From assembly GCA_963971425.1 (NCBI GenBank), contig OZ020515.1, forward strand, positions 19,154,637 to 19,218,636: DNA of 64,000 nt, in the 5' to 3' direction. Source of the DNA: Bryoerythrophyllum caledonicum (Eukaryota > Streptophyta > Bryopsida > Pottiales > Pottiaceae). The notes beneath the pieces were generated by a model, which worked only from the letters and a program-made list of their open reading frames with translations, made no database searches and was not told where the DNA came from. How positions within the stretch are numbered: the stretch's first letter is position 1; each line of letters starts with the position of its first letter. Positions 1,051-63,935 of the stretch are shown piece by piece. Position numbers and translations under genes: made by a program.

Positions 1051-1849
1051 ATTCACGCCGGCCTCCTTTGGAGACCGGTGTTCTTCTTCTTTTTTGGTAC
1101 TGTGGGTCTATTGATTTTTGTCTGTTGGTTATATATTTCATTTGCAATGTCTTCCGGGCTAGTTAGGATGTTATTATGTTGGTCGGTGATACAATCTAGT
1201 GGTGGGATTTCTAGTTTTTTTAAAACTTTTCTATTTATTTTCTTAGGGCTAGTTTCGTACAATTGTCTATATTTTAAGATGGCTTTTTTAATATTTTCTT
1301 TTGAGTATTTTGTAGTTATTTTCCGGGCTTGAATCTTGGCATTTTTTGCGATTAGTGCAATGTCTTTTATCCATGTATCATGGGGAAGTTCCGGGGGGGG
1401 TGTAGGGATTTGGGTGTGGTGTAAAGCTAGTAATTCATTATATATAGGATGATTTTGCCATTGTGGATTGTTTTTCACTATTCTGATAGTTTTTCGTATT
1501 GTATGGTATGTAGTTAGGTATTGTTTCCATATTTTGGAAAGTTTACGGGGTAAATAACCTCCTTGTTGTGACGTTCGGTTTGTCATTTGTGGTATTGGTT
1601 GGGCTATGCAAGTTTGTTCTATTGTGTTAGAAATATTGTTGATGAGTTCATCTAGGGTGTGGCATGCTTCATGCCATTGTGTTGGAGTGAGTTGGTTATT
1701 ATTTTCGAGTATGTTTATGAGAAAGTCAATTTGTATGGAGTTTTCTTCAAAGAACTTTGTGTTGAATTTTTCTAAGTTATCTTTTGGGATGGGGTTAAGT
1801 ATACGTATAGTAGTATTATTCGTGTTTATAGGGGTACGACTTATTAATA

Positions 1850-2640
1850 TGTTATTTGGGATGTGGAGTTGTATGGGCGAGTGGTCCGAGTTGAGAATAA
1901 TGTCTTTGTTTGTAGTGGAGGTGTATTGTGTATTATCATTTGTGTTATGTAGAAGCCGTCTATTAACCTCCAATCATTGTAGTTATAGCCGCATTGTCTA
2001 GAGTATTGGGTGTTAGTATTTATGTAGGTGAAGTTTAGGTTTTCTGTAAAGTGTCGCCATTGGTAGTCTATGTTTTGAGGGGCGGTGGTATAGTTTCCAT
2101 TTTGTCTACCAATTAGTGCTATGTCTCTGTTGAAGTCACCACAAAGCAGGTAAGTGTGATTTGGATTTAAATTCATTTGTGATGTTATATTGTTTTGTAT
2201 GTCTATGATAAATCTAGTATCTTCGGGGTGGGATGGCATATACATGTGAAAGATTATCCAGGGTTGTAGTGGTTGATTAGCAATTTTTATTATTTGAAGG
2301 TAAGGAGATATGTGCATTGGGGTAGGGATTTTCTTGATGTTGCCTGGGAGGGCATATTTTTTGTGTATTAGTGTAAGGAGGCCACCTCGACCCGGTGTGT
2401 ATGGTCTTCGTTGTAGGCTACATCTCGTTAATGCATGTGTGTTATTAAAGATGAGTTTATAATCTTGGAATGTGTTTTGTATGTATTTTATAGATTTTGT
2501 GGCTGATATTTTTGTTTCTTGAATGGTTATTATAGCCGGTGGTGTTTCTGTATATGTGGTCAGAGCTTTTAAGCTAGGGAGAGCGGTGTTGAGGGATGAT
2601 GCGTTCCATGTATTAATGTTTGTATTGTCGTTGTTTGTGT
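1850..2640 (-). CDS. LINE APE-type endonuclease domain
   Basis: Reading the minus strand, the hallmarks of apurinic-endonuclease-like domains occur in order: ASSLNTALPSLKAL at the start, IQETK (metal-binding Glu), MYMPSHPED, LLCGDFNRD (Asp/Asn catalytic motif), RLIDGFYIT and finally NSDHSPI (the SDH motif). This enzyme nicks target DNA to prime reverse transcription. The domain is split over two frames near RLIDGFYIT. The identification is secure from the four motifs. Confidence 0.8.
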
Positions 2641-3245
2641 TAGTGTTTTGGTTTTGTGGAGGAAGGAAGAGGGGGGGAGGGGGTGGATGGGTGTATTCTG
2701 TTATGGGATCTAAGCATTTTAGCGTTTTGTTGATTAAGTTATTAGGGAGGTATGGGTATTTTTGTTTTATTGTATTGTTTGAGGGTGGTAAGGTTTGGCT
2801 ATGTATGAAGTTGTATAATTCTTTGTGTATTGAGTTTCTATGGTTTATGATATTTTCATTTTCGGCAAGAAATTTTGTATATGAATGTGGGATATGGATA
2901 TGTCTTTCGGGTGGATTTTGTAGATTTGATAACGTTTGTAATAGTGTGTCTGTCCATGCAGTTGTGTTCGGGTTTTGTAGGTTTAGAAGGTGGTTACATT
3001 CATATGTGTTTGGGTGGGTGGTTATTACTAGAGCATATAGTATGTGTGTTGGTGGGTGGGTATTTTGTCGTAGTACGTATTGGGCAATATTTGGGTGTGT
3101 GGTGTTGTGTAAATGATGTAGTGCATGTGTTGTTTTTAGTAGAGGTGCAAATGCTTGGGCGATGTGTTTGTATTCCGGATGCAGTATTATAGTATTTGGT
3201 ATAAAATATATTTTGGCATTTTTCTTATGTGATGAGGGATGGTTT

Positions 3246-3647
3246 TTAATAGGTTAGGCTTGGTCCTGGGTTGGTTTCTATGTCTCCACTTAAAAGTAGT
3301 AGAAGTTTTATGTATTTGGATTTGGCGTTTTGTTTTAGAATTTTTGTTTTATGTGTGGATTTTGGATGTTTTATTATTATTATTATTATTTTGATGTTAT
3401 GTGTGTTTGAGTGTATATGTGGGTCTTTGGTTGGGTGTGTTATTGTCCCATTATTTGTGTTTCTAGCCAATGTAGTGGTAGTAAGTGCACACATGATATT
3501 AGGTATTTTTGTCTTTGTATTAATGTGTAGGACTTTATTTTTTCTTGTGGTTATTGTGTCTATTTCGTTTCTATTGTCTATTTTTTTGTGTGTTGGTTTG
3601 CTGGTGGGGCATTTTGTTGGTGTTGGTGGAGTTGTGTTTTTTGTCAT
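3246..3647 (-). CDS. LINE N-terminal ORF with 2A-like peptide
   Basis: This 133-residue open frame ends in KLLLLLSGDIETNPGP followed by SLTY and a stop. D-(V/I)-E-x-N-P-G-P is the 2A ribosome-skipping signature, in which the ribosome fails to join the last G and P and releases the upstream peptide. The hydrophobic LLLLL run just before it is typical of 2A-like sequences found at the N-termini of non-LTR retrotransposons in trypanosomes and animals. A one-base frame change follows the motif; in the next frame a long open stretch continues with HPSSHKKNAKIYFIPNTIIL. The 2A motif is seen directly; that it was active is inference. Confidence 0.7.
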   Translation of the reverse strand: MTKNTTPPTPTKCPTSKPTHKKIDNRNEIDTITTRKNKVLHINTKTKIPNIMCALTTTTLARNTNNGTITHPTKDPHIHSNTHNIKIIIIIIKHPKSTHKTKILKQNAKSKYIKLLLLLSGDIETNPGPSLTY

Positions 3648-24501: not shown

Positions 24502-27500
24502 ATGGCCGCCCAAGTCGTTGAAGAACCAGCTCCTGCGGTGAAGGCCGAAGAATTGAAGGCAGCTGCTAATGCCGCTTTTCAAGGTGCGTCATCTTGTAGT
24601 TTTGTTTTTGTGGTGGTTTGATACGAGTGTCTGCTACACTGGCGTGCTGCATAGATGAGAAGTTGTTTGGTATGTTACACTTTCAACCACTGAGGGATTG
24701 AAGATCGCGCCACCTGTTAGACCTATTCTCACAGTTACACTTCATAATTGGTTGCGATGCAGCACACAAGTTCGCATCTGCAGTAGAACTCTATAGTGCA
24801 GCCATTGATTTGAATAGTCAGAATGCTGTCTATTGGGCCAATCGCGCGTTTGCCCATACGAAGATGGAGTCGTACGGAAGTGCGATCGAGGATGCTACGA
24901 AGGCAATTGAAGTCGACCCTAAATATGTGAAGGTATTTCACGGATAATTCCTTGTTAGATACTTTCATATAATATGTGATTCATATTGGCGGTTATGTTC
25001 AAAGATCATGGGAACATCTTTTCTGTTGTTTGAGTTAAGGTTCTTTATTACGCAGGGCTACTACAGACGAGGTACTGCTTATCTGGCATTGGGGAAATTC
25101 AAGGATGCTCTTAAAGATTTTCGTCAGGTACTAACTTTATTCCTTATGTTTTTCTTGAATATCTATTATATTTCTGTAAGAAGACCTTACTGATGCCTTC
25201 ATAAATAGGGTTTTTATAATTCTCACTAGTTGCATGACACTGTCTGTGTTTCAAGAATATTGTTCTGCACGGGTTACATTGCAATCATTCTTGGCAGAAA
25301 AAATTGTCTTGGTTATGTGACATATATAGTTTAACAGAAATAATACACTCCACCTTTCAGGTCATACTTCCAGTTTATTGTTTCTATTTCAGTTAGCTGT
25401 TGTCTGTGTTATTGAATCGTATCATTTTCATCTTGAAATATGGTATCTTTGCCATGATTTGGATGAAATACGAGCCTCTCTATGACGTATTCGCTGTCAA
25501 AGGGTAATTTTCCCCTGTTTTTCCCCTGATGTCCAGATATGTTCAAGTATACATTCAAGGATAGTTTATTTTATTAACCCCTAAAGGACCAAACGTCCCC
25601 CCGGGGTCATTTGGATTTTGGGCATGTACCTACAATTCGAAAAAAAACCCTTTTTAATTGATTTTTTTTTTCAAGATAGGATCTGATAAGAGCGTTGTGG
25701 AGATATTTTTAAATTTTTTTTTGGATTTGTGGTTTGAAAGTTAGTACCACTTAAAGCCAAAAGTGGGACTTCGGGCACCTCCAAAAATTTTGACAAAAGT
25801 TTCTATTGACATTGAGATTTTTCACACACATAAAGAATATTTCCTAATTTAGAAATTTTCAAAAAAAAATCTTGTCTTTAGTGTAAAAAGGCATTTTATT
25901 CCAAGTCAAACATTTTCACAGAGTTTTGGGCAACGGGGGAAAAAAACTTCATCTTTTCTACATAAAACCTAGAGATCTTCATATTTTTCACTTTTTTTTT
26001 TCAACAACAATATATGGTGAAAACCTTCTTATTGACCGTTTGGATTATCATTTGAATACATACGTAGTTCACAAAAAAATAAAACGTGAAATGGCAATTT
26101 TTGAACCTTCACTCCTTGCACACTTGTTTTGAATATGCTACACCCCTTTTTTACCTCTAAAAATTGGTGTATTGGGAAATAACATCATGCTTAAGACAAT
26201 GGTAAAGGATTTAGACCTTGTACAATGCAAAAATTTGATACAAAATGAAGTCAAAGTCAGCTGATCTACTCAGCGCAGGGATGGAAATGAACCATTGTTT
26301 TGACTTTAAACACTAAAATCTATCAATCCGTGCGGTGGATTGCAACCAAAATTTGATGGCATGTTTATATGGAAGTCTATTTTAAGATCTTATGGTTGAA
26401 AATCCAAAATTCACTTTAAAATGTGATTTTCATGTCTCTCTTTGACAGTGGCAGTTTTGGACTGGTTTTAGAGCGAATTAGGTCGTGGTCCTTTAGGGGT
26501 TAAAACCAAATGGTACTTGTTTGGTGTTTCCAGGTTCAAAGGATTGTGCCCAAGGATCCAGACGCCACCAAAAAACTTAGGGAATGTGAGAAGGCGATTA
26601 CGAAAATCAAATTCGAAGAGGCCATAGCCACGGAAGATGAAGGGAAACATTCCGTGGCTGAGTCCCTAGACTACCATACCATAGGTACTCCCGGATTGTA
26701 ACTTCTCTGATATCATTTTGTCATGGTTTTTATTCATCGATTCTCTTTTGTCATCTCGTGGACATCCGTTTTTCTCATTTGACACTCGTCTGATTATCGT
26801 GATTTCTTTTGAAGTGTTAGTATTATCGTGTTTTTAAAAGATTTCAAATCATTTATTGCTTGTTACAGCCTAAAATTGACTTTGGAATGGCTTCGTTTGT
26901 GATAGGAAACAATGGCCACTGTTGATAGACTTTATTTTGTAGAGGTTGCATTCAGAGTAATTCCTGAGTACTGTATTGTGATGGCTTTTGCAGAGGTGGA
27001 GCCTTCTTACCAAGGAGCTAGACTAGAGGATGATATTATTACCCTGGAATTTGTGCAAAAGATGATGGATGACTTTAAACAGCAGCGCTCCATCCATAGC
27101 AGGTAGTTTTGAGTTTTTCTATTTTTTTTGCAAAAATCGTTCAATACTCGGATATAAAAACTTTGCAGAAAACCTCGACCCAGAAACTGGGTTTTAGAAC
27201 AAGTACTTCCAAGGCCTCATTCTAAGTTTCTATTGTTCTGATGTTTGTGTTCCCACAGATATGCCTTCCAGATTCTTATGCAAACACGAAAGCTGTTGTT
27301 GGCAACGCCCACTTTGGTTGATATTGCTGTTCCTGACAAAGGACATTTTACTGTTTGTGGTGATATTCATGGACAGGTATGAGCATCTCTCGTTGCAGCA
27401 AGACGATCTAATGTTTAACTACTTCGTGAGCTACTGCTAGTGTCGGATATTTTGGTCTAACTTCAACGTTCCTGGGTTTCATGCAGTACTATGACTTGCT

Positions 27501-29516
27501 CAACATCTTCAAGCTGAATGGTCTTCCCTCAGAAGAGAATCCTTATCTCTTTAATGGTGACTTTGTTGATCGTGGCTCTTTCTCGGTTGAGGTTATTCTC
27601 ACGCTATTCGCGTTCAAGTGTCTCTATCCAACTGGTAAAATTCTATCTGGTTTGGTATTTAATATTTCCTCTTTTTTTTCTGATGAATATGCTTTTTGCT
27701 TATCATTTTAAGTTCCTTCTCACTTATTTCCGACTATTCCTCAAGAGGTATGGTTTATTAGCTTGGATTCATAAATTGTAGCAAAGATTTTTCAATCGGA
27801 CGGCCATCTTTCAGTGGAGTTTTTATCAAACACTGACTTAACACCAACCTCTGTTTGATTTCTACTCTTTGTTGATTGTGACAACAGGACTATACCTTTC
27901 CAGGGGTAATCATGAAAGTAAAAGCATGAACAAGATCTACGGATTTGAAGGAGAAGTCAACTCAAAGTATAACGAGACCATGGTGAAGCTATTTGCGGAG
28001 ATCTTTTGCTACTTGCCGTTGGCGAATGTCCTGAATAAGAAAGTCTTCGTAGTGCATGGAGGGCTCTTCAGCAGTGACAGTGTGAAGTTATCTGACATAG
28101 CTGCAATTGACCGATTTAGGGAGCCTCCAGATGAAGGTACGTGCACATCTGAGGTAGATGTAGTTCATTCATGCACTATGATGTCTGAGTTCCTGTTAGC
28201 TACTGGTTCCCAAGCAGATCATGTTTTGCGGCCCTTTAATATGTTCTTTGCTTGTAGTCAACTTCGTCTTTTCGATTTGAAGAGTTTAGAGATTGTACGT
28301 ATCGCTTTACTTAATCACAAATACACCTTTTCCATCAAGGGTACTGGGACTGGTAATATGGCTGGCGCCAAAGCTTTGATCTGTTTCTCGGCTTTTATAG
28401 CACTTCTTGCGAGTCTTGGGTACCCTGAGTAATATTTTACGCTGATTTTCTTATGCAGGTTTGATGTGTGAGCTGCTGTGGAGCGATCCTCATCCCGGCA
28501 CAGGTCGTGCACCTAGCAAGCGCGGTGTTGGTGTTGCGTTCGGATCTGATGTTACACACCGTTTCTTGGAAGACAACAATCTAGGTCTGCATCTTAATCT
28601 ACTGCCGCTTTTGTTGCAGTGCTCATTCCCACTCTCCACAACTACTATTGCATGACCGCAGTTTACTGACTTTCTTTTAGCAGCTTCATTTCACATTACC
28701 CGTCGTTCTATCTTGCGCAATGTTCTCTTACGCGAGTTTTGAATCAGAATTGGTGGTGCGGTCGCATGAGGTCAAGGATGAGGGCTATGAAGTGGATCAT
28801 AGTGGCAAGCTAATCACAGTCTTCTCGGCACCCAATTACTGTGATCAGGTATACATCCGATCAATCATGTTTCTTCGATCTTGTGCTTCTGATTCGACAC
28901 TCTTCTCATACCACCTTGATCGAAACAGATGGGAAATAAAGGAGCTTTTATTCGGTTTAATGCGCCAGAGATGAAGCCTCAGTTCACCAAATTCGGTTCA
29001 GTGGTGAGTTGTCCCTCTTTCAAACCCCACATGATAATAGAGTTTCCTTTGAAGTCCTAGAAGAGGAAAGAGTAGAGAAAACAAAGAGAGTGAGATTTAA
29101 ATACGGAAAGTAATGGAGCATGAGAGATTTAATTTTCTTGTTTTCTGCACCTAAGACAGAAATGAATAGTAATGGCAATTAATGGGCCCTACTCAATGCA
29201 AGCTAAAGCTTCCCCATATTATTCCAAGTTCCCAAAGAGTTGACTGGTAGTTCCCCCACCTCCCAAACTTGCCACCCTCTCCATGTGGTCTTGTGGTCTA
29301 GTTTAGTAACATAGGATTAGCCTCTCCATGTGGTCTTATATACTAGCATAGGATGAGGATCATAAAGTAACTCTCACTTTCAGGAAAACTCCAATCTCGA
29401 AGTTAATCATGAGTTAATGTCACATCTTATTGATGACGTTTATGTTGATTTTGCAGTGGCATCCAAATGTGAGACCCATGGCATACGCGAACAACTTCTT
29501 TAGTATGCTGGCGTAG
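24502..29516 (+). CDS. PP5: Serine/threonine protein phosphatase 5 (PP5), 12 coding exons
   Basis: Exons: 24502-24583, 24763-24932, 25056-25127, 26534-26684, 26994-27102, 27259-27376, 27487-27634, 27888-28136, 28459-28584, 28748-28848, 28929-29003, 29457-29516. All are GT-AG, phases fit and the sum is 1461 nt, 486 residues, like other plant PP5 (about 484). Residues about 14-120 are TPR repeats ([36 protein letters not shown]) that bind Hsp90 and fold over the active site. The catalytic domain holds the PPP metal motifs GDIHG (229-233), GDFVDRG (258-264), GNHE (290-293), HGGL and SAPNYCD. It dephosphorylates Ser/Thr in cytosol and nucleus, often in Hsp90 complexes. It ends [13 protein letters not shown]. 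All key residues are present and the gene looks functional. Intron 3 (25128-26533) contains a TTAA element. Confidence 0.96.
25578..26499 (+). mobile_element. TTAA-flanked TIR element inside PP5 intron 3 (922 bp)
   Basis: TTAA at 25574-25577 and 26500-26503 flank an element with ends CCCCTAAAGGACCA and, reversed, CCCCTAAAGGACCA (14 bp identical). There is no coding capacity. TTAA target duplication is the habit of piggyBac-like and Kolobok-like transposons; without a transposase I cannot choose. The inner segment near 26270-26350 matches the element at 40151-41306 in opposite orientation. Confidence 0.82.
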
Positions 29517-49434: not shown

Positions 49435-49443
49435 CTGCACACA

Positions 49444-49489
49444 AACACGCAATTAAGCAATTATGCACTTGGCCATTTAAAAGTGCACT
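49444..49489 (+). repeat. Left terminal inverted repeat of the 13-kb element
   Basis: It starts AACACGCAATTAAGC and pairs with 62580-62619. It is preceded by ACACA. Confidence 0.75.
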
Positions 49490-50128
49490 TGGGTACAACG
49501 GCGGCCATTGCGAACTAAAGTGGCAAAATTGAAAAAAAAAAAAAAACAGTGAAAAAAAATGTTTTCCAAAGGAAAAAAAATTGAGCTTCTGCAACAATAT
49601 TACATACAATCATGGTTGTTCATATTGGAAGCGATTTTTTGGCATTTTCAACTAATTTGTGGTGGCCCCTCGTTAATACTAGATAAATATATATTTAATA
49701 TAGTTTCACAATATTTCAAAGATAGATTTGAAGGATTGTAGTATATAAACAGGCGTAATGACAAAAAAACATACTTTATGCAAGGGTTGGCAGTTGATTA
49801 AAAGATATTCTACGTAGTACATAATGCATACAATGGTGAAAACTAAATATAGATGCTTCAATAATTGGACTTAGCACCAATAGTAAACACAACTTTACTC
49901 TAAAGGATTAATAACATAACGTCTTACATCACCCTTAGAATATACTACTCTTACACATACACTATATATCAATTACCATACACAACTAGTATACTCTCAT
50001 AAAGGCACACTATCTACTCCATAGAATTTAGGGCTGCTTGCAAACGGTCGTCATCGATAGCTTCGGTTTGCATTGCAATATATTGTAGTATGTGAGCCTT
50101 TGCCGATTGAAGAATGCGAATCCTGCTT

Positions 50129-53100
50129 TCAACCTGCACTCCAAATACATTGCGCTTTCTCCACCCGCTGGCCCCGGACATGGTTCTTTCCGGTGTATCT
50201 AGCCATGAAAAAATGCATGCATCTTTCTCTCTCCAGATGGCTCCCAGAATGAATCCATGCGATTTGCATACCGTTGTGCAGAAGATCCATGTCCGTCAGC
50301 AACCCCCCTTTGGATGATGGGCCAATACCAACAAACCTTAATATTAAGTCTCCATCGGTTTTTCCTTCCTCAATCACTTTCCCCAAGTAGAATGGTACAC
50401 CACCTTCTATCTCTGCTCGATCAACACACAAGGCTACAAATTGTCCACAACAGATATCAGATTGAGGATTAAATGGTGGAAATGGGTCGTGATTACCTTC
50501 ATACATTGCTCCTTCTTCGGTGCGTTCCTCAACATAGTTGCGCTCTATTTGTTGTGCCCTACGCACTGCTTGATTAGAGGGTCTTCCTCTACGAGGACCA
50601 AAGTATCCTCGAGCCTCGGCATTTGGAAGCATGGCCACTACCTGCTCTACGACATTTACCTCGTGATTTTCTTCACTTGCACCATCCATAACATCCAAAG
50701 ATGCGCTCCCTGTAGGTCTGGTGTTGGAGAACTCTGAAGGCCAAAACGGTAAGGTACGATGCTCATTGCTACGATCTTTGTGTGGAAATTCAGCTAAATA
50801 GAGTTTCAATCTTTCAGCCTCTACTTTTGCCTCACGATTCTTATCCTCATGCTGCAATCTTTGAATGCACCTTTGTTTATATGCAATGAAGTCATCCAAC
50901 GCCTTCAACTCCCGTTCGTCCGCTGCAAATACTTCCGCAAACGATGGTCGTTCATCCCTATTTGGCAACGACCTCAAAGTTTTCGTCCCTGCCTCCGGTC
51001 CCCAAGGATCCTTGCAATAATGCTTGTGTTGTACTCGAACCTCACGAGTCTCTTCTCGATTGTCCATATAGAATCGCATGTGGTGCGGAAATGTTATGCC
51101 CACCAATGAATCCTGACCTGTCAGTAAGTGAGGAGTTATGAACAATTTCCAATCCCATACATTCTCTAGCAGCCGGGCGCTAACAAATGCCTCCGTAGGA
51201 GATGTTCCTCGTTCTATAAGACTCATCATTTCCTTCGACGAGTCCACGTCCGACCTCTTCAACGTATTTGATATACAACTGAAGCGTTGATCAATATCTT
51301 CGTGGGTATGGCCCACTATAAGAAAAGATAGTTCCACCTCCTGAAAAAACCCCAATCCCACCAATGTAGCACATAGAGCAAACATATAAATGTTTTTGTT
51401 CTCACGTGTGCAGTTGTCGGCCTGAATTCGCAGTGTTGGTGGCAAAAAGCCCCTCCTTCACAACACATCTCCAATCACGTACAACAATGTACTCACGACT
51501 TGATTGCTATCGTGTTTGTGGTGAGCCCCAAACCACGCGTCACAATATAAACCAATCCCATGTACAAGAGCACCACACAAATGGATCTTCACAAATCGGT
51601 GTTCAATGTTCTTCACAGTCTGACGCATCCTCGGTACCATGGTCGTGTTTTGATCCATGCCATCCACTATGATGCACATGTACAACTCAGGGCTAATATA
51701 ACACGACCTTTTGAATATCCAATAATGCCTACGTTCTTCCATCTGGTTGCGCAGATGCAACATGAACAACTCCTTTATCTTTATCCTTGCATCCGCATTG
51801 GTGGTTCCCTCCATGGCACATTTTATACTCCCAACAATGATAACACTTCGAGAATCTCGAGAACGGAGGTACCTGAACGTGGGGATACTTGATGCGCCAC
51901 ATCCTCCGAAACGAACTCATAGAAATGGTTTCTCCTTTACAAATTCTCTTGACCTCCTCGTTCACGTAATTGAATACATCAAATTTGGCTGTATTCATAG
52001 GAAGGAGAATGAGAGGCACCACTTCGTTGTCACTCTTACGACAAATACAACGATGAAGTTGAGGACAACCAGCTTCATCGACAAACGATTTAAAGCAAGC
52101 CTCTGCTGCAGACATTCTAGTACTCTCTCTTATCGGATCTAAAAGGGTATTGCCGTGAATCGATGTCACTCTTCCATATATTAGACAGTCCTTCTTCAAT
52201 TTCTTAAAGCGCCTCTGTGAATATCCAACCCCAAGAGCGTAGCAAGCATTGCAAACTTCTTTCCCATCTAACTTTGTTACAAACTTGTCTCGACGAGTTC
52301 CTTCCGTCCTTGTGTAAAAGAAACCAGCATCTGTCTCATCCACGTACTTCGAACTGAAAAATCATTACCCCATGCATTATATCGCATGTCCAATAGATAC
52401 CTTGCTAGAACGTCCCTCAAACAATTGCGTTTGCATCCTCCTTGTGCCATTGCAATTTGCACGCTTCTAAGCGATACCTTAGATGGTACAGCTTCTGTCA
52501 ATGATGGCTCTCTTGAATTTCTTCTTCTCCTATTTTCCATAGAATATGGATGACGTGTTGGTCTAACATAAGCAAATCCATCTACATGGGGCAAATCTTG
52601 GATGTTTGAGGGAGTAGGTTGGAAGAACGGCGAATTTTCATCTATGGCGTTTGAAGCATGACTACTACGTCGAGACCTCTCGGTGGATCCTAGTGTGTTG
52701 ATGAACTCAGGAAAATTGAATTCTGGGGCCATTACTTATGTAGGCGCTATCTGTGATCCAATGTTACCATGAGCACTTGTAATATCAGGTTCTATAGCCA
52801 CTATACGTAGTAAAGACCGATGCCAACGAATGATCAAGCCTAGACACAAGACAAGGCGTTCTCCTACAATCTCTCCGGTCCAATGCAATGCATCATCTAT
52901 CCTGGTGATACGCACTGCCACCTCAAATGGAAACAACTTCGACCCATTCAATTCCATGCCACTTTTGAATGCATGCTCTTTGGTTGCTAGGCCCACCACA
53001 TCTCCACTCTCAGAAAGCAATTCTACCGTTCTTTCTAATGCAGATGTCATGATCCCAACAGATCTCTGTTGAATTTGCCTTGCACGTACTGCTCGCACTA

Positions 53101-53188
53101 ATCGAGCCCCCACAGAGCTATTGGAATGCATATTATCCCTTTGAATGTGTGGCCGTATCGAAGGAGTTTGAATTGTGCGGCTCTCCAT
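50129..53188 (-). pseudogene. DUF7869-type protein, probable transposase of the 13-kb element
   Basis: The minus strand holds consecutive coding segments from an ATG at 53188 (MESRTIQTPSIRP) to a stop at 50129, about 1000 residues in all. Recognisable parts: a CKRNC site, VCNACYALGVGYSQRRFKKL, FSKCYHCWEYK (zinc-binding pairs), IIVDGMDQNTTMVPRMRQ, LRIQADNCTRENKNIYMFAL, and FLIVGHTHEDIDQRFS. This order matches DUF7869-containing proteins, a large family in plants, fungi and animals whose spaced Asp/Glu motifs suggest an RNase-H-like DDE nuclease. The last 240 residues (charged, LKALDDFIAYKQRCIQRLQH) are unrecognised. About four breaks (two frame changes, two stops) separate the segments. It is transcribed divergently from the ParB-like gene, as expected of one mobile unit. 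Family membership is fairly sure; the transposase role is inferred. Confidence 0.72.
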
Positions 53189-53410
53189 TATCACTATTGA
53201 AAAAATAGAAACATTATGTCTGCACATTAGTCAAAATACATGTATTAATTGTTAACCTTCAAAGCACGATTCATTTGACAATTGATATGTTTCCAAACAC
53301 ATATTTAATGTTCAAAATATGATGATGATATTGGACCTTTTGATAAATTAGCTTTGAAATAAAAAAATTAAGAATTTGTAGAGCATGAACTCCTTACACG
53401 AAGTCTTTAA

Positions 53411-54352
53411 CCCTAAAGATACAATGACAGTTTTACACCAAAAACACTTCAAAATTGTTGGATTCCAGCGCAATGAACAAAAAAAGAAACGAAAACTTTT
53501 ATTTCTAGTTTTGACCGTAGGATCTCAATTAAGACTTATTAAGTAATATATAAGCAAAATTTCATAAACTGTGACCGTACAGATTGAAAGATTATAGTGT
53601 TTGAAGTCAAGCATATGGTTCATTTTCTTCCCTGCATGTAGTGGATCAACATACTTTGACTTCACTTGATGTCAATATTTGGCACTACACAAGGTCTAAA
53701 TCCATAACCATCTTGTTAAGCATGATGTTAATTCCTTGTACACCAATTCTTAGAGATAGAGAATGGGTGTAGCATATTCAAAACAACTGTGCAAGGAGTG
53801 GAAGTTCGGAATTTGTTAATTCACACTGTAATTGTTTGTGATCTTAATATGTTTTAGATTGGTAATCCAAATGGTCAATAAGAAGGTTTACACCACATAT
53901 TGTTGTGGAAAAAATTAAGAGTGAAAAATCAAAAGAATTCTAGGTTTTAATTGGAAAAGAAGAAGGTTTTTTGGTACCTTGCCCAACAGTGACTGACAAT
54001 GTGTGAAAATGTTTGACCTAGGTTGGTATGCTATGTTTCACTAAAGACAAGAACTTTTTTGACAACATCAAGGGAAATAATATTACTTGCAAGTATTGAA
54101 AATCTCACATTCAACAGAGTGTCGTAGCAAAAGTTTATGGACGTGCCCGACTTGCATGCTCTCCCCATTTGAAATTGAAAACCTTAAATTTTTTTGATCA
54201 AATGTCCAATTTAGGTAAAATTGTTGTCCCACTAAAGTCTTCGTAATGTTTTTCTATGGAAAAAAATTCAAAGAGAAATGGTGGAAATTGACATCATAGG
54301 AACCTGATCGAACATTCTAAAAGCCCATTTTTTACACTTGATCCTTTAGGGG
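53411..54352 (+). mobile_element. TTAA element nested in the 13-kb element (942 bp)
   Basis: It starts after TTAA (53407-53410) with CCCTAAAG and ends GATCCTTTAGGGG followed by TAAA, a decayed TTAA. The interior shares GACCGTAGGATCTCAAT and CCAAATGGTCAATAAGAAGG with the sequences at 56560-57995 and, for the latter block, 63560-63935. It is non-coding, non-autonomous and younger than its 13-kb host. Confidence 0.72.
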
Positions 54353-55499
54353 TAAAATATGCTACACCTCTTCTGCATCCCTAAACATTGGTGTAAATGG
54401 AATTAATATCATTTTTGACATGATGATAATGAATTCAAATCATGTGTCATGCGGGCTTTTGAATCCAAGTGAACTGAAAAGAAGGGAATCCACTGAACCG
54501 ATATCAGAAAAAAAGAACCATGTTGTGTACTTGCTATTACCGACACCATTGGAACTTATTACAATCGCTAATAAAAAATAAGGTTTGTACATCCACAATA
54601 AAGGTTATTCTACAAACAACATAGTATAGAAGATCAATCAACAATCAATCTTAAACTTGTTTAAAAATAAATGTTTACCTGAAGATACGTTGCAGGTTTT
54701 AGCGGTATACGCACTGATGCTTGATGGCGTTCAACATTAAATCACCATTCCGTCGTTGTAGTTGAACATGTTTTTCAACCCTTCCCACTTTACCTGCAAC
54801 ACATGCATAAAACTTATATGGTAAACTATGCGATAAAAACTCCTAAGTATGTTTGTATTACATATAGTCCGAAATTTTAATATAATATGTAAAAAGTTTA
54901 AACATAAGGAGGAACAAAGCAAAAGGTCCAAAGTTTGAAAGTCAAATTTTGACTAGTAAACTTGAGGCACAAGGTTCCAACGTGGATATAAGGTTTCTAT
55001 GCAAAACTAGAGATCATTTCTCTTCCCTGTTTCTAAGGTGAGCTCTCTTGCAATCGAAACCTCGAGGCCATATGCATTTATACTCCATTCACTAATTTTT
55101 GTCAACTTTGTGAACTGTGTAGATTGGAGGAAATTTGCACATCGAGGAGATTTTTGCAAATTCGGTAAGCTACTAACTCAGTTTCAATTCTGCATAGAAG
55201 AAACTCCAGGGTTACATACATGATGATTGAAGTTCAGTCAGATTTACGATAGTGTTAGGTGTGTACCAATATTTGAATACAGAAATGAGGACACCAACTT
55301 GAGTATGTACAAAGGTGCAAATTCAACAAAGTCGAATAAATACACTTGTAGCAGTGAACAACTAGTGAACTCAGCCCTCGTTTAACTAAAATAATTACAC
55401 CAACACCACACAAATTAAAGTCGAGAGAGTAGTTGATAATATGGCACTAAATCCTCAGTACGGCACATCACCGCACTACCTGAAACCCTAGCCGCCACA
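54353..55499. other. No feature recognised
   Basis: AT-rich sequence inside the 13-kb element, with only short frames lacking motifs. Confidence 0.4.
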
Positions 55500-55617
55500 T
55501 CCAGGCACCCAAACCCAAGCTGCCACACCGAAACCCTAGCTGCCACACCGAAACCCTAGCTGCCACACCGAAACCCTAGCTGCCGCAACTAAACCCTAGC
55601 CGCCACACCGAAACCCT
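55500..55617. repeat. 20-bp tandem repeat with telo-box, cut by the gap
   Basis: About five to six units of GCTGCCACACCGAAACCCTA run into the N gap. Every unit carries AAACCCTA, the plant telomere-like promoter box. The array probably continues into the gap. Confidence 0.85.
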
Positions 55618-55817
55618 NNNNNNNNNNNNNNNNNNNNNNNNNNNNNNNNNNNNNNNNNNNNNNNNNNNNNNNNNNNNNNNNNNNNNNNNNNNNNNNNNNN
55701 NNNNNNNNNNNNNNNNNNNNNNNNNNNNNNNNNNNNNNNNNNNNNNNNNNNNNNNNNNNNNNNNNNNNNNNNNNNNNNNNNNNNNNNNNNNNNNNNNNNN
55801 NNNNNNNNNNNNNNNNN
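55618..55817. other. Assembly gap (200 N)
   Basis: A run of exactly 200 N, a usual placeholder for unknown length. It follows a tandem array, so the missing sequence is probably more of that array. Confidence 0.99.
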
Positions 55818-55871
55818 GGGATTGAACTAGGGGCTTGATCTTTGAAGACGGTGGGCGAGGTCAAAATGGAG

Positions 55872-55935
55872 GGGAAGATTTTCGAAGGCGGCAGGGCAGC
55901 TGCGTCCTTCAACCGCCGGCCTTCGAAAATCTTCC
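55872..55935. repeat. 21-bp-arm hairpin beside the gap
   Basis: GGGAAGATTTTCGAAGGCGG at 55872 and CCGGCCTTCGAAAATCTTCC near 55916 are near-perfect inverted arms around a 22-bp loop, in GC-rich sequence. Confidence 0.75.
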
Positions 55936-56314
55936 CTACGTCAGCCGGCCTGCGGGCTCGCAGCTACTCTGCGGCCTGTCGGCGAGGCGGCCAGGCAACC
56001 GGCCAGACGGCCTGCCGAGGGCTGGCGAGGCGGCCTGCCGGCTCCCTCACCTATCTCCCTCACTGATACTACATTCTCCTCCCACCACAACCTCCTCACA
56101 TTTTCCTCCCATTCTCCTCCCATTTTCCTCCCATTCTCCTCCCACCCAAACCCTTGCGCGCTCACATTCTCTTCCCATCCAAACCCTACGCGTGCTAGCT
56201 CCCTCTCACCCTCATATATTCTCACACTCTCCATTCCCCTCTCTCCCCGCCCTCACAAACCCCTCTCTCCCTCCTCCAAACCCTCTCTCTCACACACAGC
56301 CTCCCTCACAACAA
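55936..56314. other. GC-rich then CT-rich low-complexity sequence
   Basis: GGCGGCCTGCCG-type repeats (about 55980-56045) are followed by repeats of TCCTCCCATT (56080-56150) and C/T-rich sequence. The open frames here are compositional. Confidence 0.6.
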
Positions 56315-56348
56315 CTACGAGGGGTGTGCGCGCGCACACCCCTCGTAG
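56315..56348. repeat. Perfect 34-bp palindrome
   Basis: The 17-bp half CTACGAGGGGTGTGCGC is followed directly by its exact reverse complement, with core GTGTGCGCGCGCACAC and no spacer. Confidence 0.9.
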
Positions 56349-56559
56349 GACTACCCAAAGTTTCAATGGATTGATATCCGTCATAGATACCCTCATTCCC
56401 AAAACCCTAATACCAACCCTAATTGATACCCTGGGTTGATACATCAGTTGTTAGCCGGGTATTGGTACCTTCGCAATCATACCCTGGTGGTGATACCCTC
56501 GCTCTTGATACCCAAAGTACCTTGGTCCATAAATGATGTTGAGAATTTCTCAACCAAAA

Positions 56560-57995
56560 ATCGTAAAAAATACTTAATAGAGTGCATTTAGCAAGGAAAA
56601 CAAAATAAGGTTTTTTTTTTTTTTTAACCGTAGGATCTCAATCCTCACTTATTAAATAATATACTCGCGAAATTTCATAAAGTATTACCGTACGGATTGA
56701 AAGATTATAATGTTTGAAGTAGAGAAAAGGCTCATTTTCTTCCCTGCGTTTACTGGATCAGCAGACTTTGACTTCAATTAGTGTCCAATTTTTGCACTAT
56801 AAAGGGTCTCAATTAATTACCATAATGTTAAGCATGATGTTAGTTTGCTATATACCAATTTTGAGAGGTAGACAAGGAGTGTAGCATATTCCAAAAAATT
56901 GTGCAATGAGTGGAGGTTCAAAAATTCTCAATTCACGTTATATTTTTTTGTGAACTTGATATTGTATGAAATGAGAATCCAAATGGTCAATAAGAAGGTT
57001 TACATGACATAATGCCGTAGGAAAAATCAAAAGTGAATCATACGAAGATCTCAAAGTTTTATGTGGAAAGATAGAAGATTTTTCGGTACCTTGGCCGAAA
57101 ATTTGTGACAATGTGTGAAAATAATTGACTTGGATTGATATGCTATTTCACCAAAGAACTAACAACATGCTTCACACAATGGTATTGGATTTAGATCTTG
57201 TGTAGTGCAAAAGTTTGTAGAAGTAGACAAGGGGTGTAGCATACTTTTTTAAAATGTGCAATGAGCGGAGGTTCAATAATTCTCAATTCACGTTATGTTT
57301 TTTTGTGAACTTGATATCGTTTGAAATGAGAATCCAAATGGTCAATACGAAGGTTTACATCACATAATGCCGTAGAAAAAATCAAAAGTCAATCATACGA
57401 AAATCTCAAAGATCTTTTATGTGGAAAAGTAGAAGTTTTTTGGTACTCTCCCCGAAAATGTGTGACAATGTGTGAAAATAATTGACTTGGATTAATATGC
57501 TTTTTCACCAAAGAACTAAGAACATGCTTAACACGATGGTATTGGATTTAGATCTCATGTAGTGCAAAAGTTTTAAGACGTAGACAAGGGGTGTAGCATA
57601 TTTTTTTTAAATGTGCAATGAGTGGAGGTTCAAAAATTCTCAATTCACGTTATTTTGTTTTTGTGAACTTGATATTGTTTTAAATGAGAATCTAAATGGT
57701 CAATAAAAAGTTTTACATCGCATAATGTTGTAGGCAAAATCAAAAGTGAATCGTACGAAGTTCTCAAAGTTTTATGTGGAAAGGTAGAAGTTTTCTGGTA
57801 CTCTTCCCGAAAATGTGTGACAATGTGTGAAAATAATTGACTTGGATTAATATGCTATTTCACCAAAGAACTAACAACATGCTTAACACGATGGTATTGG
57901 ATTTAGATCTTCTGTAGTGCAAAAGTTTTTAGAGGTAGACAAGGGGTGTTGCATGTTCAAAAATATTGTGCAATGAGTGGTGGTTCAAAAATTCT
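56560..57995 (+). repeat. Partial TTAA-family copy with about 356-bp tandem array
   Basis: Sequence related to the 53411-54352 element begins near 56560 (AACCGTAGGATCTCAATCC). Its inner part is then repeated in tandem: GTGCAATGAG occurs at 56901, 57256, 57613 and 57968 (spacing 355, 357, 355), with GGTCAATA-GAAGGTTTACAT and GACAATGTGTGAAAATAATT in each unit. The array ends about 60 bp before the start of the ParB-like gene. Confidence 0.8.
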
Positions 57996-58057
57996 TATTC
58001 CATACTAATAGTGACTATTGTTTTGTAATGATATATAGGTTTTTTGAGTGTTGCGTT

Positions 58058-61000
58058 ATGGCACCACCAAATATTGATAGAATCTGGGAGAGCCACGGCT
58101 GGTGGATTGCAGAAGTGGATGAATCGAGCGCCTTTTTATGGGTGGCGGATTATCCCTTTGAGCTGGGAAAGCGTACATCGGTGTTGGGGAAGAGTTTTGG
58201 CAAAATCCAAGCAATCACTCTTCGACGTGATGATATGGTATAAGTTACTTGCGTAGTGGGTCCAGGTCAATCGGAGGTGAAGACTTCTCTTTCGAAGAAG
58301 TTGCTTTTGGCACCTGTACCTTTGAATCTTCTTCAAAATCCAGGTCAGGTGAAATTCCTCAAATCATTGCAGACGTTTTGGTTAAACATCTCTCTTGCGG
58401 TACGTACTGCTAGACACAACAACGTCTTATCTTGTTTAGCGTTATCACCGGAGATGGTGCTGAAGGCTAAGAAGATTATGGAGGAACATATTAGATATGA
58501 AGCATTTTGGGAGAGGGACCCATCACGTGCGACAACTCAAGCCCCACCAGCGGAACCAGAAGAAACAGAAGTTTATCGAGTTCTTGCTGAGCCGTTGCAA
58601 CTAGATTGGCGACCACTGGAGGAGGGAGAGGAAGTGGAGGCCAACATTCCAGCACAACTTCTGAGGTACAGACATTACCGAATCCTCCATTAACGAGTAG
58701 ACGTCCTACGAAGAGGCCACGGCGTATTGACAGTAATGTAGCTTCTGGTTCAAGGGAAAGCCCATCAAGTTTGGATCCAAGCGGGAGGAGGTTGATTGGG
58801 AGAAGTGCCAGATCAGGTGGCAGGATTCCTAGGTCGGGGCTCAGGACGTCTGATGGTCATCGTAGGGCCCCTACATCTACACCGGGAGATTTAACTGATT
58901 TGTCAGCCATGGCGCCGGAGGAAGAAGATTTTCACAACCTTCCAGACAGTATACTAGAGGATTTTGAAGACAATGCGGAGATACCACAGGATCTTCCAAC
59001 TTCAATGTATTTAAAAGCACCAGTGCCTACAACGGAGGAGATTGCGAAAGGATCAGTGTGGGGGAATTTTGTGTTTAAGGCACACATAGACCGCGTTGTC
59101 TCTGTGGAGAACCCGGAAACGAACCACCGGGTTTTATCACAGAAGAGGGTCATAGAAGTATTTAACCGCTTAAGAGACCCAGAATCTGCGAGTCGGGTGA
59201 GTAGATTGATACTTCGACCGATCAGATACATCGTGCATACTACCACCGATGATGGTGTCATTGAGAAGGAGGAGCTGCCATTTCCATTGGTAGGAACCGC
59301 ACGAGAGTTTGAGCGCATATTCATTGCACACGGGAGTGCTTCTGCACAGGGTGCCATGGGATCCCAGTATTCTTGGCTTCAAGATCATATCATTTGGGAA
59401 CCGGTGGATGGCCAACACATAGTAGCAGCTTGTAAGTTTGCACAGCAGCAGTGGAGAGATGGTACTATGCCTTTAAATGAGTATCTCGATACGTTCGAGC
59501 GACGGGAGGCCTCTTTTGTGGTGTGTGATGATCGTCGCTTTTACATTGAGAAGTCTGCGCGGATGAACGTGGCAGAGTTCCAGAGACAGTCATATTCTAC
59601 CATGGAGGAGGATTTGAGGAAGATCCGTCAGATTTGGGATCTATACGGGAGGCCTGATAGCTCACTACGTGCGAACGATGCACGCAGGGCTGTTGCATTG
59701 GTGAGTGCGGCAAGTGTAGTGCATAAGTTGCCCAAGGGGGATGAAGTTGTCACGGTGAAGAGGTTGGCCAAAAATATGGAGGATTTGACCAATCATGCAT
59801 GGAATCCGAGCAATGACTGCTTCGAAGCTATCATTCAAGTATGCAAGGACTACGAAGACGGCATTCTCTTTTACAGCAAGGAGGAAGATGACAAGTGGAA
59901 TGACATGGCGAGGAAGAAAGAGCTGGATCCAAATGTGGACGTACGACCAACAAGAAAGGAGATGACGCAGAATTGGTTGAGGCCGTTAGGTAGGGTTCCG
60001 AATCCATATTATCTTCGGTTGGCAAAGTCTGCTGCAGCGAAGCGGGTGGGGGAAGATGGAGTAAGACCACGTCAAGCATATTACTTTGACGGTGTAAAAG
60101 ACAAGAATCCACATCCTCGTACAATTGCCGATGTTTGTGACCGATATCAGAGACGAGAAGTTGTGATTAATTCCATCCGTTGGTTGATGGTGGAGAACAA
60201 GGAAAGTACACATGATACCATGGAGGAGTTTTTCCGTATCCGTGTAGGGAAGTATTTTCCGAGGAGTAACGCACAACTTGATACGTTTGGAAAGCTTTTG
60301 AATGCTGCCACGAAAAAAGCTTGGACTGCTCCTGTGCGGGGGAAGGTGTCTAAATTGGAAGACATAGGCTACATCATCCCCCCTTCCATCAGGTTTCATT
60401 ATGGTGACATTGCAGCAGGGGGGCGTGGATACATTGGACTGTCCGTGGATGTGGGAGGACAGACTACTGCTAATTGGGAATGGCAGATGGAAGTCAAGAG
60501 GCCTGGCCAGAGTGACATAGATAATCTTCTTCCGGTTCGGTGTAGAAGAGGGTTATTCCGCACCGACTACATAGAGTTGGGGAAACCATGTTTGTGGGTG
60601 ATTGATTGTCGACGTGGCGTGGGAGGCATGGAGATGGTCATTGGGGAGACGCCCAATTATCCGCAGTTTTTGCACAGTTGGCATTATGGATGGCAAATAT
60701 TGAACGATGGAACGTCATCTTCTTGTTACCAGCGGCCGTGTATGCCAACGAAGACTTTTTCACGAAGGTGAAGCTTCCAGAGGAATGTACTATGCGACGT
60801 GGATGTTGGGCATTTGATCCGAACTCGGCTAATCCCTATGCTCTCGATTTTACAGAGAATGGGCGTCTGGAACAAGTAGTACAACCGATTGGCGATGTTG
60901 TGATTTGTATGCAGCACCCTGTGGGTACATCTCCTGGCCCGAACTATGTTTCTGGAGATGTTCCACTTCCTCTTGTTTTCTTGGATCACTGGAGTGAGGC

Positions 61001-62021
61001 ACGCCAACCCTGTGAAGTTGATTCACTTGAGAGATCTCCATCAGAGCTAGCAAGACTAGTGGGCTCATACTTGCCCCGTGGTTGGGGTTTAGTGGCGTGT
61101 AACATATCTACGGCCATTCCCACAATCTTTGAAGGAGATTTCCAGGGATCTGAGGTTTTCATCATTGACGATTGTACAGACAGAGTTTCATTTCTGTTGA
61201 ATGAGTTGTCCGACAATTTCCAAGGACAACTCTTGGTCAGGGCTGGTGGAACAAGTACTGGTTGCAAGATCATACCTAAGACCGAAGAGGCGGTTGGTGG
61301 AGTGAGGAATGAAGACGACAATGAAGATGGAGGTGGTTTACATGAGAGATTGCCACGTTCAGGTATCACTGAAGATTTCTCATCTCGCAGTGGTTCAGAC
61401 ACCGATGAAGATGGAGTGAACCAGTCTCCTCCAATAGAGAGGATTCCATCAACGTAGCGGGCGGTGGGGGATACTTTAGAGGAGACGTCTGCAACACATA
61501 TAGAGAGAATGCAAGATACCGGTGTAGTGGATGTTGGTTTGGCGGCAGGGGTAGGAGGGGGGCGTACATGTGATGGTCATGGGCTGGAGATGGAGGAAGA
61601 AGAATTGGATTAATTGGAATTTTTTTCGGTGCAGAGGAGGATTCCACAGCCTTCGATGCCTTCTCAATCAGAGCCTATATCGGAGACACAAGAGACGTTC
61701 GGAGGTACTCAGAGTGATACCGGACCAGGTTTGCCTTCCGTTCCAAGATCTAGCGTATCCGAGGACATCATTGCATTTCAGGGGGCCTTCTCGTTAGAGC
61801 GAGAGATGTCCTTCAATTGAGAGGATGGATTTTTCTACAATGATGATAGGGTAAGGCATACGCAGGAGGGTGTTCCCGGCAATTACCGATATGTTGAGTG
61901 TGCGTCCATTGGCATCGAAGGTGTGGGAGATCGTCCAGTGCAAGATCATGAACTGTCCGCTATGGTAGGTAGCGCCATTGGACACGTGGAGGGAGTCGTT
62001 CCGCCAGAAGATGAGCTCTGA
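58058..62021 (+). pseudogene. ParB-like plus degenerate methyltransferase-like gene of the 13-kb element
   Basis: The plus strand reads MAPPNIDRIWESHGWWIAEV at 58058, a basic low-complexity region near 58690 (SRRPTKRPRR), then a 600-residue conserved-looking body from 58900. In it IWEPVDGQHIVAACKFAQQQ resembles the DGQHR-type motif of ParB-like nuclease domains, preceded by LSQKRVIEVFNRLRD as in that fold. Later EMVIGETPNYPQF sits where methyltransferases have motif IV, and RSPSELARLVGSYLPRGWGL then VACNISTAIPTIFEG...FIIDD sits where motif I would be, with catalytic residues replaced. ParB domains fused to DNA methylases are known from phage and bacterial proteins. An acidic tail follows. About five breaks are present. 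The fold calls are by eye and uncertain; that one long gene lies here is not. Confidence 0.5.
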
Positions 62022-62579
62022 GCCCTGGAGCTATATACTATAGTAGAGCATGCACGCAGTATAGGTGACAAGTACGTTAGTATAATGCAGTTTGAGATGT
62101 GTCTATCGTTTGGTGGGTGGTATATATTTATATATTGGGTGGTCCATATTATATGTTTGATTTTAGAATTCCTCGGCAATAGTGTGGAATTGCTTGATTA
62201 TGTATGTTTTTGCATTATAAAATACAGTGAGGTACTTTATACTGTCTTAGGAAATTGCATATATATTTTTATATCTCTTACACATTGTATTTGTAGTGTA
62301 CTACTCTAAAATCCTATAATAACTCATAACAAATTTATAATCTCTTTGGGCACATGATTATAATTTTGTAGCAGGATTTGTAAACTAGATTAGAAATCAT
62401 ATATTTTCTAAAAAAAGGTAGCAAATGTAAAAAATATATTACTGATATGAACATGAAGATGCCAAGGTATGACACGACAAACACCAAAAAAATTTGACAA
62501 AAAACATACTAAATTTTTGCCAAATTTTGATTTTAAAAAAAGTTACGAGCAAATAACTTACGGCTTTCTACCAGCAACC

Positions 62580-62619
62580 AGTGCACTTGGCTAAGTGCAT
62601 AATTGCATAATTGCGTGTT
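62580..62619 (-). repeat. Right terminal inverted repeat of the 13-kb element
   Basis: Read on the minus strand it starts AACACGCAATTATGC and pairs with 49444-49489. It is followed on the plus strand by ACACA. Confidence 0.75.
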
Positions 62620-62624
62620 ACACA

Positions 62625-63559: not shown

Positions 63560-63935
63560 TAATAGTCAACAACTTGTTCTTTTGACAACTCACGTATCAT
63601 TTTTTGGGAACAAATTATGTTTTAGAATGATAATCCGAATAGTCAATAAGGTTATACCATGTTTTGTACTAGAAAGAATAAAAGTGAAAAATATGAAGAT
63701 TTCTAAGTTTAATGTGGAAAAGAGGAAGTTTTTTTGGTTCCTTGCCCATCAATGTGTCGCAATGTGTGAAAATCTTTGACTTGGGATAAAATGCATTTTT
63801 CACTAAAGGCAAGAAATGTTTTTTGACAATATGAAAGGAAATAATCCTACTTGCTAGTATTGAAAATCTCAAATCTACTAGAGTATCCTAGCAAAAGTTT
63901 TTGGAGTAACTCGGCTTGCCCGCACTTTATAGTTA
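63560..63935 (+). repeat. Partial TTAA-family copy near the window end
   Basis: Blocks such as AATAGTCAATAAGGTTATAC, AATGTGGAAAAGAGGAAGTT and GTATTGAAAATCTCA match the 53411-54352 element in the same order. Terminal motifs are not present in the window. Confidence 0.65.

Follow-up and report, generated by a model that had tools for sequence, protein, structure and literature searches.

A giant DNA transposon in which a transposase gene is accompanied by a lengthy gene of opposite orientation has been described in the brown alga Ectocarpus (PMC12477816). This element, Sola1-1_Ec32, is 21.5 kb long, and the opposite-strand gene is reported to code for a protein of 1,104 amino acids (aa) with ParB-like and DNA (N4C/N6A) methyltransferase domains. 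In Dictyostelium fasciculatum and Polysphondylium pallidum, Sola2 elements generate AT-rich 4-bp target duplications (PMC3627910), and both Sola1 and Sola2 elements have been annotated in molluscs (PMC10294476). Here we describe a unit of ~13 kb at positions 49444-62619 of a 64-kb stretch of the genome of the moss Bryoerythrophyllum caledonicum (contig OZ020515.1, positions 19,154,637 to 19,218,636; hereafter the window). It is highly likely that this unit is an old, decayed copy of a family of large cut-and-paste DNA transposons, probably Sola-1-like, which would encode a DDD transposase with the domain DUF7869 and an element-borne partner protein. Read from the DNA itself, the family is marked by paired inverted ends whose termini are fixed, short duplications of the target, related unoccupied sites, numerous closely similar dispersed copies and two divergent genes under purifying selection. 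The Sola-1-like affiliation is probable and, like the comparison with Sola2, was drawn from described features.

Like Sola1-1_Ec32 (PMC12477816), the moss elements are giant DNA transposons that carry a transposase gene and, in opposite orientation, a second long gene. Differences concern size (21.5 kb as opposed to 12.6-16.9 kb for the measured moss copies) and the second protein, which in Ectocarpus is described as having 1,104 aa with ParB and methyltransferase domains, whereas the moss protein is ~1,345 aa long, the searches detected neither domain in it, and DCRRG replaces DPPY. An initial annotation of the window had not known the gene combination from described plant transposon superfamilies; because of the Ectocarpus Sola-1 element, it is less unprecedented than was then thought. 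As described in PMC3627910, Sola2 resembles the moss family in its AT-rich 4-bp duplications, short inverted ends, long transposase (888 aa in DFa-2) and, in some elements, an accessory gene. It differs in that the accessory gene is Fanzor1 and in that its inverted ends measure 12-21 bp.

Structure of the element in the window

A scan of the 64-kb window with the 31-bp end pattern AACACGCAATTANGCAATTATGCACTTNGCC at up to three mismatches yielded two matches only, the left terminal inverted repeat AACACGCAATTAAGCAATTATGCACTTGGCC at 49444-49474 (+ strand) and the right terminal inverted repeat at 62589-62619 (- strand). No match was obtained at this threshold in 100 shuffles, and a chance inverted repeat was thereby ruled out. 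The terminal arms are 32 nt long and 94% complementary. Further inward, a 9/9 inverted match of the subterminal repeat AAGTGCACT was noted by eye at 49481-49489 (+ strand) and 62580-62588 (- strand). The initial view that the inverted ends delimit one mobile unit was supported. The sequence ACACA directly adjoins both ends on the outside (49439-49443 and 62620-62624).

Two degenerate genes lie between the ends. Gene 1, the DUF7869 (transposase) gene, occupies 50017-53227 on the - strand (tblastn with the protein of the intact copy E1, and Pfam), and gene 2, its partner, occupies 57953-62018 on the + strand (tblastn with the E1 protein). In Pfam searches DUF7869 (PF25273) matched the open reading frame (ORF) at 50129-51445 (- strand) with an E value of 2e-39; the match of the preceding ORF (0.0007) was below the curated cut-off. 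Alignment with the proteins of the intact copy revealed that both genes are broken by stop codons and frame changes, and the ORFs listed for the window are therefore fragments of larger genes. Of the two divergent long genes proposed initially, the arrangement was confirmed, with DUF7869 on the - and the second gene on the + strand, while the ORFs then listed represent only pieces of them.

Copies in the genome

The genome searched comprises 437 Mb in 894 contigs. The left 101 bp of the element gave at least 41 matches, of which 40 were 99-100% identical along 101 bp; the number is a lower bound because only the best candidates were scored. The window copy and six others were fetched whole, ten were followed to the right end, and 22 were retrieved as short loci only. 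At C15:5057395 and C3:35641819, 4 kb each were read, and the former diverges from the element after ~2.1 kb. At eight loci inspected the flanks differ and the common sequence starts exactly at AACACGC. Right ends were located for nine of the ten additional left ends (lengths ~12.8-16.9 kb), so that the ends occur as pairs, as expected in the initial annotation; at C10:23686320 a right end was sought and not found.

Ten whole copies were chosen from the list of DUF7869 genes; hence all hold this gene, and the sample is biased towards intact ones. Each of them (12.6-15.9 kb) has both ends, and the same two divergent genes lie between these, in line with the proposed position of the DUF7869 gene. 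Six belong to a subfamily with AACACGC ends (12.6-13.1 kb) and four to one with AACATGC ends (15.4-15.9 kb). Both genes are open in six of the ten (E1, E2, E3, E4, E6 and E8). All 19 copies fetched besides the window copy begin with AACAYGC and end with GCRTGTT, apart from one substitution in four of the right ends.

On C14, two copies that lie 65 kb from each other, one with the target duplication TACA and one with GTTT, show 99.97% identity across 12,498 aligned bases. Compared with the six other copies of its subfamily, the window copy shows 90.6-91.3% identity. Transposition within the family has been recent, and the window copy is older. On C9, ~1.3 kb past the right end of E2, a further end (L012) starting with AACACGC has a different continuation and is perhaps a second element or a fragment.

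Target duplications and unoccupied sites

For 20 insertions (the 19 copies and the window), an exact 4-bp target duplication was present in 17. The duplications consist mostly of A and T, with a G+C content of 15% vs 39% in the flanks. In E10, C4:2864020 and the window, which make up the remainder, the right end shows the 4-bp repeat displaced by a single base. The 5-bp duplication claimed for the window is real in that ACACA reads as a perfect repeat, but 5 bp is not the rule of the family; CACA plus a single additional base on the right side is an equally good reading if the 4-bp rule applies. A 4-bp target duplication is a feature of Sola as a whole. The superfamilies piggyBac and Kolobok target TTAA; as none of the 17 exact duplications was TTAA, superfamilies of this type were ruled out.

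Flanks were joined with one copy of the duplication and matched across the joint among the fetched loci. Related unoccupied sites were found for five of the 20 insertions (E2, E7, E10, C12:18821472 and C12:3898671). In the eight alignments displayed, the unoccupied site has a single target copy; six of these copies are identical, and two carry one substitution. The sites are members of dispersed repeats with 77-93% identity in these alignments and as little as 72% among the matches listed. Many are located within spacers of the same transposon family and others outside (e.g. L007, window 25700-25878). The joined flanks of C8:14027650 and C11:21575253 had no match beyond the flanks of one another, and both were left out of the count. 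For the window insertion, TGCACACAATG had been proposed initially as the pre-insertion sequence.

The DUF7869 protein

In nine of the ten whole copies the DUF7869 protein has a length of 1,061 or 1,076 aa; its gene is under purifying selection. A structure model and the alignment point to an RNase H/integrase-like core with conserved residues D, D and D, for which D509, D591 and D633 are the candidates. Such an RNase H-like core is shared by retroviral integrases, IstA and mariner transposases, whose acidic residues lie in corresponding secondary-structure elements; DUF7869 differs from them in that D seems to occupy the third acidic position. While E630 is replaced by S in two of 35 sequences, D631 and D633 are kept in all 35. 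Cysteines are conserved upstream of the core. A search of PDB sequences with the DUF7869 profile matched no integrase or transposase, only one unrelated protein at chance level, and in viral contigs scanned for patterns of either gene, the patterns were matched without any relative being confirmed. Judged by the modelled core and its conserved residues, the DUF7869 protein is very probably a transposase, as the initial annotation had supposed. The C-terminal part of the model matched the BAH-PHD chromatin reader 5znr in Foldseek (probability 0.98, E value 0.068) and might guide target choice.

Sola transposases are DDD rather than DDE. The AT-rich 4-bp duplication, the apparent D-D-D triad and the divergent partner gene all favour Sola; proteins with DUF7869 are also present in molluscs, where Sola1 and Sola2 have been annotated (PMC10294476). 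They argue against a superfamily defined by DUF7869 that is distinct from Sola and has its own 4-bp AT-rich target preference. Such a separate superfamily, which we regard as rather unlikely, would be compatible with a literature search in which no paper mentioning DUF7869 or GHTHEDID was found, and with a link to Sola that was drawn from described features.

The partner protein

Gene 2 encodes a protein of ~1,345 aa. At least 43 copies of the DUF7869 gene (31 without a stop) and at least 35 of gene 2 (19 without a stop) were scored in the genome. Among these listed copies, 18 of the 35 gene 2 copies are within 8 kb of a DUF7869 copy and divergent from it; one more pair is 19 kb apart in another orientation, and the remaining 16 have no partner among the listed matches. 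Moreover, gene 2 shows purifying selection, both inside each subfamily and between the two. Because of this selection and the frequent pairing with DUF7869, gene 2 is better viewed as a partner than as chance cargo; of the two roles initially offered for it, cargo or accessory, the former thus became unlikely and a conserved partner remained. Cargo, e.g. a gene captured from the host that plays no role in transposition, would fit the lack of a known domain in profile searches and the frequent presence of host genes in large plant transposons. Yet, apart from selection and pairing, no host gene was recognised among the nine gene 2 homologues in a large protein set, since all are named only 'hypothetical protein', and we consider cargo to be improbable.

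A ParB/methyltransferase character, which the initial annotation had ascribed to gene 2, was detected neither by profile hidden Markov models nor by profile-profile comparison. Pfam gave no family at E < 0.1 in any of eight homologues, and the window fragments had no known domain in hmmscan against NCBIfam. The only PHROGs match was to phrog_35330 (function not known; one member, 0.0018), and none was to a family named ParB or methyltransferase. No match resulted from a PDB sequence search with the gene 2 alignment or from tblastn in phages; in a scan of bacterial and archaeal genomes patterns were matched, and no relative was confirmed. Profile-profile scores against eight N6/N4 methyltransferases were inside the range of ten shuffles, while the positive control, phiH vs YhdJ, reached 99%. 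A methyltransferase motif read by eye in 'LERSPTELSRLV...GWGLVACNISTAI' received no support from profile comparison or shuffle tests; the short motif stretch scored 9.8 vs a mean of 10.3 for 100 shuffles (seven of the eight methyltransferases could be cut accordingly, two of the stretches poorly). The hhalign comparison with ParB-type proteins had no power, as the ones used failed to find each other (probabilities of 0.1-2.3%).

Nevertheless, gene 2 may be a fusion of ParB and DNA methyltransferase of prokaryotic plan, as in Ectocarpus Sola1-1, which has lost the canonical methyltransferase motifs and binds and marks, or once marked, the element DNA. This origin is a reasonable candidate, to which we give somewhat less than even weight. 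In a poor model only, the protein weakly resembles a methyltransferase structure; a Foldseek search with the poor gene 2 model gave no result (best E value 0.79). In the part with supporting structural matches the predicted local distance difference test (pLDDT) score is ~22-47, and these matches may therefore mean nothing. The profile results just described also weigh against such a fusion, as does the invariant DCRRG, found in every row of the gene 2 alignment at the position where the DPPY of methyltransferase motif IV is expected.

Other features of the window

The divergent genes are separated by a spacer (53228-57952) with dispersed repeats and a gap of 200 N at 55618-55817. A run of 200 N is also present in each of six other whole copies of the same subfamily and in none of the four whole copies of the other. 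Dispersed repeats are located within the spacer, outside the element and elsewhere (window 53498-54162, 56611-58016, 63599-63926 and ~25700-26336), and tandem units of ~355 bp are found at 56859-57995. Members of such repeats also serve as insertion sites for transposon copies. Outside the element, an ORF at 1847-3253 (- strand) matched the endonuclease/exonuclease/phosphatase family PF03372 just above the cut-off (2.2e-5) and possibly represents remains of a long interspersed nuclear element (LINE) retrotransposon. A match to calcineurin-like phosphoesterase (PF00149, 7.3e-10) at 27842-28429 (+ strand) is probably a host gene.

Discussion

The features of the family suggest how the element may move. 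The DUF7869 DDD transposase would cut at the AACAYGCAATTA ends and join them to AT-rich targets with a stagger of 4 nt, apparently 5 at times. The cysteines upstream of the core and the C-terminal part, which is weakly similar to a BAH-type chromatin reader, may aid binding of DNA or target. The gene 2 product would be an element-borne partner, most likely DNA-binding, that either assists transposition or marks or protects the element DNA. It would take the place held by the ParB-methyltransferase gene in the Ectocarpus Sola-1 element. More speculatively, the gene 2 protein could be built on the ParB-methyltransferase plan and, kept by selection, have lost the methyltransferase motif and gained the DCRRG site. 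It would then form a two-protein system with the DUF7869 DDD transposase, as a new DNA-binding or DNA-modifying partner that aids escape from silencing or the pairing of the element's distant ends. We hold this elaborated version to be doubtful.

DUF7869, so far a family of unknown function, gains a likely function as transposase, and many DUF7869 gene models are therefore probably transposons. In addition, the large two-gene layout of the algal Sola-1 element is now found in a family that was active recently and retains intact copies. Because of these copies and of the nearly identical pair, it becomes testable whether a second protein is needed, be it for moving 13-17 kb of DNA or for escape from silencing.
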